A stretch of DNA of 64,000 bases from Solirubrobacter pauli (GTDB lineage Bacteria > Actinomycetota > Thermoleophilia > Solirubrobacterales > Solirubrobacteraceae), in NCBI RefSeq assembly GCF_003633755.1, contig NZ_RBIL01000001.1, positions 1,907,426-1,971,425 on the forward strand. The letters are read 5' to 3'. The notes beneath the pieces are model-generated. The model did not search any database. It was given only the letters and a program-made list of their open reading frames with translations, and was not told where the DNA came from. The position numbers were made by a program, and so were the translations under genes. Of the stretch, positions 1,091 through 56,343 are shown one piece after another; position 1 is the stretch's first letter; each line of letters opens with the position of its first letter.

Positions 1091-1276
1091 CTAGTGGCGC
1101 GTGCCCGGCGGAAGACCGGGACGGCGCGCGGGCTCCGGCCCGATCTGGTTGCGGCCGACCACGCGGGACGCCTTGTCACCGGCGTACAGGACGATGTCCA
1201 GCGCGGGCGCCGCGAGCCGGATCAGCGCCTCGAGCCGGCGGGTGTTGCGAACCTGTGCTGCGCTCCTGTAGGCCAC
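1091..1276 (-). CDS. Small 61-residue protein, unknown
   Basis: A short ORF from GTG 1276 with a plausible amphipathic segment (LEALIRLAAPALDIVLYAG) and a basic, proline-rich tail. I do not recognise it. Support comes from context: a TACCCT hexamer (1291 to 1286 on the minus strand) sits 9 bases before the GTG and shares its TA with the -10 of the divergent CBS gene, and the ORF ends 22 bases before the next same-strand gene. Without that promoter arrangement the call would be weak. Confidence 0.5.
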   Translation of the reverse strand: MAYRSAAQVRNTRRLEALIRLAAPALDIVLYAGDKASRVVGRNQIGPEPARRPGLPPGTRH

Positions 1277-1285
1277 GGTCGCGCA

Positions 1286-1295
1286 AGGGTACACT
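1286..1295. promoter_or_regulatory. Bidirectional -10 core (shared TA)
   Basis: The minus-strand hexamer TACCCT (1291-1286) and plus-strand hexamer TACACT (1290-1295) share the TA at 1290-1291. Start codons follow 9 bases away on the minus strand (GTG 1276) and 8 bases away on the plus strand (ATG 1304), consistent with two leaderless transcripts. Confidence 0.5.
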
Positions 1296-1303
1296 CGCGC
1301 TCG

Positions 1304-1723
1304 ATGCTGGTCGGCGAGGTCATGACAGAGGGCGCGGTCACCGCGAGCCCGGACACTTCGGTGCGCGAGGTCGCGGGCCTGATGCGCTCGCGCAACGTCG
1401 GCTCGGTGGTGCTGGTCGCCGTCGACGGCCGCCCGGTCGGCTTCATCACCGACCGCGACATCGTCCTGTCGGTCGTCGCGCAGGGTCGCCCGTGGGACGA
1501 CCGCGCCGCCGAGCACGCCTCCTCGCCCGTGATCCGGGCGGAGCCGGACATGGAGGTCGAGGAGGCGACGCAGCGGATGGTCCGCCACGGCGTCCGCCGG
1601 CTGGTCGTCGTCGAAGGCGGCGTCGTGCAGGGCGTCGTCACGCTCGACGACCTGTCCTCGCGCGGGCTCGAGCCGGAGCTGTCCGCACGCGTCACACGGG
1701 CTGCGCTGCCCGCGCTCGGCTGA
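1304..1723 (+). CDS. Tandem CBS-domain protein
   Basis: A 139-residue stand-alone CBS pair. CBS1 covers about residues 3-60 (VGEVMTEGAVTASPD, then GRPVGFITDRDIVLSVVAQG) and CBS2 about 70-125 (ending VVQGVVTLDDL). Such Bateman modules bind adenine nucleotides and usually regulate a partner; none is fused or adjacent here, so the target is unknown. The ATG at 1304 has no Shine-Dalgarno; TACACT at 1290-1295 suggests a leaderless transcript. The 3' end overlaps the convergent amidotransferase gene by 32 bases. Confidence 0.85.
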   Translation: MLVGEVMTEGAVTASPDTSVREVAGLMRSRNVGSVVLVAVDGRPVGFITDRDIVLSVVAQGRPWDDRAAEHASSPVIRAEPDMEVEEATQRMVRHGVRRLVVVEGGVVQGVVTLDDLSSRGLEPELSARVTRAALPALG

Positions 1724-14223: not shown

Positions 14224-14233
14224 GGCCTACCCT
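14224..14233. promoter_or_regulatory. Probable bidirectional -10 core (imperfect)
   Basis: The plus-strand TACCCT (14228-14233) is 9 bases before ATG 14243. The minus-strand TAGGCC (14229-14224) shares its TA and is 7 bases before TTG 14216, but ends in C instead of T. Confidence 0.35.
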
Positions 14234-34328: not shown

Positions 34329-35624
34329 GTGCTGAGGAAGCTGGTGGTGGCGCTGCTGCTCTACGCCGCCCTGTGTGGGTCGGCGTCGGCCGACGTGTTC
34401 GACGACAACCCCGCGGCCGTGTCGCTCGGCGCGGGCAACGTGCAGCTGTTCGCGCGCTCGGCCGACGGCCAGATCCTGCACCGGCAGCTGTCCGCCGGCG
34501 CCTGGAGCAGCTGGGCGGCCGTGCCCGGCCTGCAGGCCGAGTCCGGGCCCGCCGCGGCCGTCTTCGGCACCACGATCTACCTGTTCGCGCGCGGCGCCGA
34601 CGGCGCCGTGTGGCAGAACATCCTCCCGCTCGGCGGCGCGTGGTCGGGCTGGGAGTCGCTCGGCGGTCAGGCCACCTCGGCGCCCGGCGCCAGCACGCGC
34701 GTCGGCAACGGCACCGTCGACCTGTTCGTCCGCGGCACGGACAACGGCCTCTACCACCGCGCCCTCGTCCCCGGCCAGGGCTGGACGCCGTGGGAGGCGC
34801 TCGGCGGCAACCTCACGTCCGCGCCGACGGCGCTGGGATACAGCACGTCCGGCTCGATCGACGTCTTCGTCCGCGACACCGCCGGCGGCACCGCGTCGAT
34901 GTACTACGTCAACGGCGCCTGGAACGGCTGGTACGGGTACGGCGGCTCGATCAGGGGCGCCGTCGCCCTCGCCTCCCCCGCGACCGACGTGCTGCAGGCG
35001 TACGCGCGCGGCTCCGACGACGGGCTGTGGCTGCATCGGCACGCCCCGTCGAACACGGACTGGACGCGGATCGACACCACGGCGCTCAGCTCGTCCCCGG
35101 CCGGCGTCTCCGACACGACCGGCAGCGTCTGGCTGTTCGCCCGCATCGGCGACGAGCTGTTCACGCGCAACGTCAGCGCCGCCCACACGGCCACGCCGAG
35201 CTACGGCGGCTGGGTCTCCACCGGGCGGGTCGCGCTGCCCGCCGCCCCGACGCCGCCCGCGCCGCTGCCGCCGCCGGTCACGCTCACGCCCTCGCTCTCC
35301 TACACGTTCAAGGCCGCCAGGCGCAGCACGCGCCTGCGGACGCTGACGGTCAAGAACATCCCGGCCGGCGCGACCGTGAAGGTCACGTGCTCGCCGGGGT
35401 GCTCGACCAAGCGCTGGACGACGACGCCGAAGCGGTCCACGCTCTCGCTCAAGAAGTTCACCCGCAAGGCGCTGCGGGTCAACGCGAAGCTCACCGTCAC
35501 GGTCTGGAAGCCGGGCGCGATCGCGAGCGTGAAGACGTTGAAGATCCGCCGCTCGCGCTCGCCGCAGCTGATCTCGCGCTGCCTGCCGCCGGGCGCCAAG
35601 GCGCCGCAGCGCTGCGCTACTTGA
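34329..35624 (+). CDS. Secreted PLL/DUF346-type beta-propeller lectin-like protein
   Basis: 431 residues. Signal peptide MLRKLVVALLLYAALCGSAS, then about five to six repeats of ~45 residues in the style LFARGADGAVWQN ... WSGWESLGG, the WxxWxxLGG pattern of PLL-type fucose-binding propellers. Residues from ~300 form a Pro-rich linker and a Lys/Arg-rich beta domain with two Cys (VTCSPGCSTKRW) that may bind the envelope. No catalytic motif. GTG 34329 is 6 bases after TACCTT (34317-34322). Confidence 0.78.
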   Translation: MLRKLVVALLLYAALCGSASADVFDDNPAAVSLGAGNVQLFARSADGQILHRQLSAGAWSSWAAVPGLQAESGPAAAVFGTTIYLFARGADGAVWQNILPLGGAWSGWESLGGQATSAPGASTRVGNGTVDLFVRGTDNGLYHRALVPGQGWTPWEALGGNLTSAPTALGYSTSGSIDVFVRDTAGGTASMYYVNGAWNGWYGYGGSIRGAVALASPATDVLQAYARGSDDGLWLHRHAPSNTDWTRIDTTALSSSPAGVSDTTGSVWLFARIGDELFTRNVSAAHTATPSYGGWVSTGRVALPAAPTPPAPLPPPVTLTPSLSYTFKAARRSTRLRTLTVKNIPAGATVKVTCSPGCSTKRWTTTPKRSTLSLKKFTRKALRVNAKLTVTVWKPGAIASVKTLKIRRSRSPQLISRCLPPGAKAPQRCAT

Positions 35625-36474
35625 GCAGCCGGGAGAGCCGTCGGTCCTTGAGGATCCGGCCCTCGGTCTGGCAGTGCGGGCAGTACGTCATCACGTAGTC
35701 CTCGTAGAAGACGGCTTCCAGCACGGTCTCGCAGCGCGGGCACGGCTCGCCCTGGTGGGCGTGGACCCGCGTCGGCTTCGGGAACTTCTCGGGCAGCGGG
35801 AGGGCCACCTTCTCCTCATAGACGTCGAGGACGCGGCCCAGCTCGCCGACCATCGCCTCGCGCAGCGCCTTCGCCTCGCGCTCGGACAGGTCGTCGCCAC
35901 GCTTGAACGGTGAGAGCTTCGCGGCGTGCAGGATCTCGTCGACCCACGTGCGACCGATGCCGGCGATCACCTGCTGGTCGCGCAGCACCGAGTGCAGCGG
36001 GCGCGGCGTCGTGAGCAGCTCGCCGAGGTCCGGCGGATCGGGCCAGGCCTCCGGGCCGAGCGACTTGAGCGCCGGCTCGGCCTCCAGCCCGTCCAGCGTG
36101 AGCACCTTCATCCACGCCGCCTGCTTGGTGCCGAACTCGCGCAGCCGCAGCTCGCGGTCGTCCGGGAGCCGGATCAGCACGCGTGACGTCTTGTCGCGCA
36201 TCGAGCCGCGCTTGTCGTAGAGCATCAGCCGCCCGGCGCTCATCAGGTGCACGAGCAGCGTGAGCGGGCCGTGCGACTCCGTGGTCGCCTCCAGCAGCAG
36301 GAGCTTGCCGCGCCGGCGCACGTCGGCGAACGTCGCGCCGTCCAGCGCGCTGAGCGGCGGATCGAACGTCTTGAGGACGTTCAGTCCCGGCGTGAGGATC
36401 GACTCGATCGTCTTCCCCGGGAGCACCTCGGCCAGGCGGCGGGCGGTGATCTCCATCTCCGGCAGCTCGGGCAC
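35617..36474 (-). CDS. Fpg/Nei-family DNA glycosylase
   Basis: 285 residues, removes oxidised bases and nicks the abasic site. GTG 36474 gives VPELPEMEITARRL: after removal of the initiator, Pro-Glu becomes the catalytic N-terminus required by the family, which fixes the start. The conserved Lys lies in RRRGKLLLLE, and the C-terminal zinc finger is CPRC...CPHC. Closer to Fpg than Nei by feel, but substrate range is not decided by sequence alone. TAGTGT (36487-36482) is 7 bases upstream and shared with the divergent M20 gene. Confidence 0.9.
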   Translation of the reverse strand: MPELPEMEITARRLAEVLPGKTIESILTPGLNVLKTFDPPLSALDGATFADVRRRGKLLLLEATTESHGPLTLLVHLMSAGRLMLYDKRGSMRDKTSRVLIRLPDDRELRLREFGTKQAAWMKVLTLDGLEAEPALKSLGPEAWPDPPDLGELLTTPRPLHSVLRDQQVIAGIGRTWVDEILHAAKLSPFKRGDDLSEREAKALREAMVGELGRVLDVYEEKVALPLPEKFPKPTRVHAHQGEPCPRCETVLEAVFYEDYVMTYCPHCQTEGRILKDRRLSRLLK

Positions 36475-36481
36475 GAAGTGC

Positions 36482-36491
36482 ACACTAGCCT
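36482..36491. promoter_or_regulatory. Bidirectional -10 core (shared TA)
   Basis: Plus-strand TAGCCT (36486-36491) and minus-strand TAGTGT (36487-36482) share the TA at 36486-36487. Each lies exactly 7 bases from its start codon (ATG 36499 and GTG 36474), leaving a 24-base intergenic gap. Neither gene has a ribosome site. Confidence 0.6.
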
Positions 36492-56333: not shown

Positions 56334-56343
56334 ACGCTACCGT
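56334..56343. promoter_or_regulatory. Bidirectional -10 core (shared TA)
   Basis: Plus-strand TACCGT (56338-56343) and minus-strand TAGCGT (56339-56334) share the TA at 56338-56339. Both start codons (ATG 56351, GTG 56326) are 7 bases away and the intergenic gap is 24 bases, the same geometry as at 36482-36491. Confidence 0.6.

Follow-up and report, generated by a model that had tools for sequence, protein, structure and literature searches.

A shared-TA core between divergent genes of Solirubrobacter pauli, a candidate bidirectional promoter for two leaderless mRNAs

Introduction

Divergent transcription from symmetric -10 elements is known in general, as an earlier note on the DNA studied here had stated, and the closest described cases are the bidirectional promoters of Escherichia coli (PMC12825309). 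In E. coli and Salmonella (work of Warman, Grainger and colleagues), divergent RNAs arise from a single symmetric -10 region. The two transcription start sites (TSSs) are most commonly 18 base pairs (bp) apart, and spacings of 10 and 23 bp are frequent as well (PMC12825309). Positions -7 and -11 are reciprocal in the 18-bp class (PMC10268837), which corresponds to the arrangement TANNNTA. Here we describe a similar arrangement, read from the sequence, in Solirubrobacter pauli: a 10-base core, ANNNTANNNT, in which the -10 hexamers of two divergent genes share their TA. The core at 36482-36491 lies in a stretch of 64,000 nucleotides (assembly GCF_003633755.1, contig NZ_RBIL01000001.1, positions 1,907,426 to 1,971,425), which is called the window hereafter and to which the coordinates refer.

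The other related system is the leaderless gene. A leaderless TANNNT signature has been reported for actinobacteria (PMC3160421). TANNNT promoters of Mycobacterium tuberculosis have no conserved -35 element and 26% of the genes with a primary TSS are leaderless (PMC3898074); in Streptomyces coelicolor, the -35 element of TANNNT promoters is less conserved (21% leaderless; PMC4895711). The genes studied here resemble the leaderless genes of Actinobacteria and Deinococcus-Thermus in their TANNNT motif and in a similar spacing of ~10 bases, but these reports, in the parts drawn on here, treat leaderless genes singly, whereas here both sides of a pair are concerned (PMC3160421, PMC3898074, PMC4895711). 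Closely juxtaposed divergent promoters are common in M. tuberculosis, where prpD and its regulator form a divergent pair with both genes leaderless; a shared core is not described for them in the part of the report drawn on (PMC3898074). A leaderless two-way version is not described in any of the titles and abstract openings listed by our literature searches.

We read ANNNTANNNT as a bidirectional promoter composed of two overlapping housekeeping-type -10 elements and yielding two leaderless mRNAs, with a probability of roughly 85%. By our own arithmetic, with each +1 at its optimum, the shared-TA offset equals the 23-bp class of E. coli, so the promoter principle is already known. Unlike in E. 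coli and Salmonella, the shared TA exceeds TANNNTA here by 13 pairs to 2, and both mRNAs appear to be leaderless with start codons at the predicted +1, so that the gene boundary would be the promoter boundary on both sides. The start codons of the 13 pairs are 24-28 bases apart, compared with 5'-end spacings of 7-25 bp at bidirectional promoters; the wider pairs fit that range only if the 5' end lies at least one base before the start codon. The bidirectional -10 principle and leaderless genes are thus already known. New, as far as the literature was searched, are the recurring unit with both sides leaderless, its frequency in the genus, its excess over the arrangement of the 18-bp class and, as described below, the avoidance of a mirror base.

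Two -10 hexamers share one TA

The window has a G+C content of 72.3% and belongs to a genome of 7.14 Mb in four contigs. At three of its sites the core ANNNTANNNT consists of one -10 hexamer (TANNNT) per strand, and the two hexamers overlap at TA. Such -10 elements of both strands in one short overlap, the mark of a bidirectional promoter of the sigma70 type with a symmetric -10, are found at these three sites and in the 13 pairs counted below.

36482..36491, both strands, shared core ACACTAGCCT of the form ANNNTANNNT, read from the sequence; fixed bases conserved in the genus
36486..36491, plus strand, -10 hexamer TAGCCT for the M20 peptidase gene, 7 bases before ATG 36499; spacing matches the genome-wide peak
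36482..36487, minus strand, -10 hexamer TAGTGT for the Fpg/Nei glycosylase gene, 7 bases before GTG 36474
56334..56343, both strands, shared core ACGCTACCGT, read from the sequence
1286..1295, both strands, shared core AGGGTACACT, read from the sequence

Letters, starts and frames were read back, and the shared-TA hexamers reported by the earlier note at 1286-1295, 36482-36491 and 56334-56343 are present. At 36.5 kb (GTG 36474 / ATG 36499) and 56.3 kb (GTG 56326 / ATG 56351) the hexamer-to-start distances are 7/7 and both gaps are 24 bases, as had been claimed; at 1.29 kb (GTG 1276 / ATG 1304) the distances are 9/8 and the gap is 27. The idea of a fixed gap had to be given up, as gaps range from 23 to 27 across the 13 pairs, with starts 6-10 bases from their own hexamer. 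The constant is the hexamer-to-hexamer offset that makes up the 10-base core. A further site at 14224-14233 (GGCCTACCCT), already called imperfect in the note, was rejected as a member because the hexamer on its reverse strand, TAGGCC, does not fit TANNNT. Scans of the window for tRNA genes and Rfam families gave no matches.

Shared-TA pairs recur in the sampled genome

The sample comprised 1.66 of the 7.14 Mb of this one genome, in stretches of 1.2 Mb and 0.4 Mb plus the window. Genes were called by a purpose-made caller that is blind to upstream sequence and was trained on the 1.2 Mb (1084 genes). It may choose a start too early (36483 and 36478 at the 36.5 kb pair), so the later tests admit candidate starts close to the called one. 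The offset between two hexamers is denoted D, where D=4 is the shared TA and D=-1 is TANNNTA, and a double-TANNNT pair is a divergent pair with TANNNT 6-10 bases before the start on both sides.

The shared-TA core was found in 13/292 divergent pairs. The earlier note had proposed to look genome-wide for enrichment of the pattern in divergent gaps, and its claim survives that check, with 11/276 pairs over the 1.6 Mb outside the window. Among double-TANNNT pairs, D=4 accounts for 13/39 (11/35 outside the window), distributed as 9/28 in the 1.2-Mb stretch, 2/7 in the 0.4-Mb stretch and 2/4 in the window; the 1.29 and 36.5 kb pairs are among the 13, and the 56.3 kb pair (113-amino-acid gene uncalled) is not. 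More than one pair was found only at D=4 (13) and D=-1 (2) of 26 distinct offsets. Shuffling with preserved start codons and single-base composition (dinucleotides not preserved) gave a mean of 0.125 pairs (maximum 2, 200 shuffles) or 0.064 pairs (maximum 2, 500 shuffles) vs. 13 observed; the shuffle covered the 113/292 pairs with a called gap of -60 to 60, which contain all 13. Scaled to the whole genome, these numbers would correspond to roughly 55 shared-TA pairs.

Since TA is self-complementary and one extra base suffices, D=4 is expected to be commoner than separated hexamers even without selection. The extra base is A, four before T (the mirror base), and with the TA shared it would convert a one-way leaderless promoter to a two-way one. 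On letter counts, selection is visible at this position. Where a forward TANNNT is accompanied by a suitably placed reverse start, the mirror base is A in 13/17 cases, and in the reciprocal case the forward T is found in 13/16, both fractions tallying letters per pair so that one pair can contribute two letters; at one-way promoters the mirror base is A in 13/237. The shared-TA core is not a product of chance and appears to be maintained by selection.

The mirror base is depleted at one-way promoters

In three genomes together, A at -4 (the mirror position) was found in 19/348 one-way promoters vs. 52 expected from the neighboring positions (p = 4e-8). The S. pauli genome dominates this depletion (~37 expected for its 237 promoters). 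Two relatives, G044 (of the same family) and G077, jointly have A in 6/111, and neither is significant singly (p 0.11-0.57). Non-promoter TANNNT sites of S. pauli carry A in ~45/294 cases, a count reconstructed from fractions, and the promoters are lower (p = 0.00025). Position -4 is also the most informative one upstream of one-way TANNNT promoters: from -45 to -1 of the 237 promoters, every position holds at most 0.04 bit except -4 (0.09). In close divergent pairs A at -4 rises to 33/105 promoters, a tally of promoters in which a two-way pair can enter twice. The depletion was not significant in Nonomuraea (11/86 vs. 15.8 expected, p = 0.21); other Thermoleophilia loci (4/56 vs. 6.8) and other Actinobacteria loci (2/40 vs. 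4.0) show the same direction in small samples.

Judged by these frequencies, the mirror base A is avoided at one-way leaderless promoters. Alternatively, A at -4 could do no more than weaken the forward promoter, and the data fit both readings. Avoidance at -4 can be checked in the TSS data of any high-GC actinobacterium. A depletion of A at +6, directly behind the hexamer, was considered as avoidance of the 18-bp class and dropped: non-promoter TANNNT sites of S. pauli behave alike (7.8% of 129, 5.5% of 165), and the depletion is therefore put down to general TA avoidance.

Start and promoter signals

TANNNT lies 6, 7, 8 and 9 bases before 4.2, 5.2, 3.4 and 2.2% of the 1084 called starts, respectively, compared with 0-0.04% (0.04% at 7) at the same distances before 14,083 internal in-frame start codons. 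TA-led leaderless genes are recognized by TANNNT ~6-9 bases before the start above background and by the lack of a Shine-Dalgarno (SD) sequence, and both were found here, the latter in the three gaps. Because TANNNT peaks at this distance before called starts, we infer that both mRNAs of each core are leaderless. The lack of ribosome sites in the short gaps, part of the original observation, was borne out: the SD-like motifs GGAG, GAGG and AGGA were not found in the three window gaps on either strand.

At the six window promoters the best match to TTGACA 15-19 bases upstream is at most 3/6. For the M20 gene, the -35 place (17-bp spacing) falls on the PELPE codons of Fpg, and the TTGACA match is at most 1/6 at spacings of 15-19. 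That the three sites have neither an SD nor a -35 motif is observed, as are the geometry, the enrichment and the conservation.

Conservation within and beyond the genus

Seven genomes of the genus were compared, S. pauli included; two of them (G001 and G006) are identical at 36.5 kb. At that site the fixed A, TA and T are retained in 7/7 genomes, and 4/6 N positions vary vs. 0/4 fixed positions; on the Fpg strand the cores read AGGCTAGTGT, AGGCTAACGT and ACGTTAACGT. The 1.29 kb site retains ANNNTANNNT in 7/7 genomes, as AGGGTACACT or ATTGTAGACT, and 3/6 N positions vary. At 56.3 kb the core ACGGTAGCGT (strand of the minus gene) was found in 6/7 genomes with every position unchanged. The seventh genome, G002, has C instead of A as its mirror base, and the divergent partner open reading frame (ORF) was not seen there.

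Of 30 Fpg loci, 26 have a TANNNT at a distance of 5-12 bases upstream of the anchored start of Fpg; 4/30 were dropped, one without an anchored start and three without TANNNT at 5-12. Within the 26, the mirror base is A in 9/12 loci with a divergent ORF of at least 100 amino acids starting in the mirror position and in 0/14 without one. The nine mirror-A loci have two partners, an M20 peptidase in seven (all of one genus) and a putative flavoprotein in two. The latter (L024 and L029) come from two other genera of the same family, and their 448-amino-acid partner is labeled a flavoprotein solely on its first residues. This different partner argues for repeated origin of the shared-TA arrangement at Fpg.

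A shared-TA core was also found at L183, another locus of the same family, and in Nonomuraea. D=4 makes up 2/15 double-TANNNT pairs in other Thermoleophilia loci, 2/7 in other Actinobacteria loci and 1/10 in Nonomuraea. With G044 (0/11) and G077 (0/3) included, the total outside the genus is 5/46 vs. 13/39 here (p = 0.016), where the 5/46 counts one Nonomuraea locus twice (two species) and excludes L029, whose pair that scan did not list. The suggestion of a recurring unit in this lineage holds for the recurrence (13/292 pairs) and fails for exclusivity (L024, L029, L183, Nonomuraea). By these counts the shared TA is open to actinobacteria more widely and is used more in this genus, of which one genome was sampled. 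As a side observation, the Nonomuraea record NZ_LT559118.1 (L275-L286) belongs to the plasmid collection; it has the size of a chromosome (11.85 Mb) and 10 annotated features in total.

Discussion

If the core is a two-way promoter, RNA polymerase would bind it in either orientation, without a recognizable -35 element at the three window sites, and would open the shared TA; RNA would begin ~7 bases past the hexamer, at or adjacent to the start codon. A core would accommodate a single polymerase at a time, and under strong firing mutual exclusion of the two genes is therefore expected. We infer the 5' ends, the use by polymerase in two directions and the mutual exclusion from the arrangement of the sites. 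In E. coli, opposing polymerases cannot co-occupy a bidirectional promoter, and at the five promoters tested competition required activation of one side, because basal firing was too low (PMC12825309). The same polymerase behavior would be expected here.

It could be argued that each site has one functional hexamer and that base composition and crowding account for the mirror base. TA is self-complementary, the mirror takes one base, and chance would provide it at ~15% of sites (flanking A frequency). However, A occupies that position in 13/17 compatible cases vs. 13/237 one-way promoters of the same genome, the starts of both genes are at promoter distance, and the fixed bases are conserved in the genus at 36.5 and 1.29 kb, which makes this explanation improbable. 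It is still harder to believe that both genes receive leadered transcripts from promoters within the partner gene and that TANNNT is incidental, given the sharp TANNNT peak 6-9 bases before starts and the three gaps without an SD-like motif. A palindromic operator for a regulator, instead of two promoters, would be in keeping with the partial inverted repeat that the core forms between two divergent genes, and with a regulator gene in two of the 13 pairs (TetR, WYL). The operator palindrome was rejected for missing dyad symmetry: the N positions are complementary in 12/42 cases vs. 12.6 expected (14 cores). The core letters also vary between sites and the other scanned pairs yielded no regulator family, and we give this last explanation the smallest chance of the three.

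Several findings weigh against a selected, leaderless two-way promoter. D=4 is absent in G044 (0/11) and G077 (0/3), both sampled at 400 kb, so TANNNT leaderless genes alone do not produce shared-TA pairs. The N positions at 56.3 kb are invariant in six genomes, and this site therefore shows no selection specific to the fixed bases. The M20 start of G002 is 11 bases from the hexamer, and its mRNA may for this reason have a short leader. TTGACA matches of at least 4/6 were found at 31/237 (13%) one-way promoters vs. 4 in one shuffle, so -35 boxes do occur in the genome; similarly, an SD-like motif precedes 27% of called vs. 13% of internal starts, which indicates that the genome uses leaders too. 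The 26 Fpg loci do not count as independent cases (seven are from one genus, and G001 and G006 are identical there), and some of the divergent ORFs tallied at them are possibly not genes.

Should the bidirectional promoter hold, ~24 bases would suffice for two promoters together with the transcription and translation starts of both genes, and a gene-to-gene promoter could hardly be made smaller. It would offer a natural system for the choice of direction by polymerase, for the exclusion of two genes on one core and for selection against unwanted antisense transcription. A more tentative idea, which we are slightly more inclined to doubt than to accept, is that a single base sets promoter directionality in this lineage. 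A would be excluded at one-way leaderless promoters, head-to-head pairs would arise and vanish through its gain and loss, and the core would be a one-base switch and pair-building unit.

Genes flanking the cores

The genes on the two sides of the three window cores are as follows.

35617..36474, minus strand, Fpg/Nei-type DNA glycosylase, 285 amino acids, VPELPE start; Pfam PF01149, PF06831
36499..37632, plus strand, M20 family peptidase, 377 amino acids; Pfam PF01546, PF07687
55343..56326, minus strand, metallo-beta-lactamase-fold hydrolase, 327 amino acids; Pfam PF00753
56351..56692, plus strand, 113-amino-acid protein, family unknown, missed by the gene caller; no Pfam match
1091..1276, minus strand, small 61-amino-acid ORF with start GTG 1276, called with a weak score of 16.2; no Pfam match
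1304..1723, plus strand, CBS-domain protein, 139 amino acids; Pfam PF00571

By alignment, no start is better anchored than that of Fpg, whose P2 E3 L4 P5 E6 (PELPE) are invariant in 15 aligned sequences. Pro2 of Fpg is the catalytic residue and must directly follow the initiator Met. In the named collection, the records encoding the closest relatives of Fpg include an Actinomycetota and a Thermoleophilaceae bacterium. In 7/7 genus genomes the distance between the mirror hexamer and an M20 start is 7-11 bases. At the position of the 56351 gene, an ORF of 113-117 amino acids is found in 6/7 genus genomes. The 61-amino-acid ORF at 1091-1276 is probably a real small gene, because an ORF of 60-61 amino acids keeps the same place beside the CBS gene in 7/7.

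No common function was found among the partners in the 11 pairs outside the window, for which Pfam was run on 20/22 proteins (the two left out cross a stretch end): 7/20 have no Pfam family, and the others are mixed enzymes and other proteins, including two regulators. A second Fpg-family gene in the S. pauli genome (L062:13678-15353) likewise has a shared-TA core; its partner there is an HpcH/HpaI aldolase.
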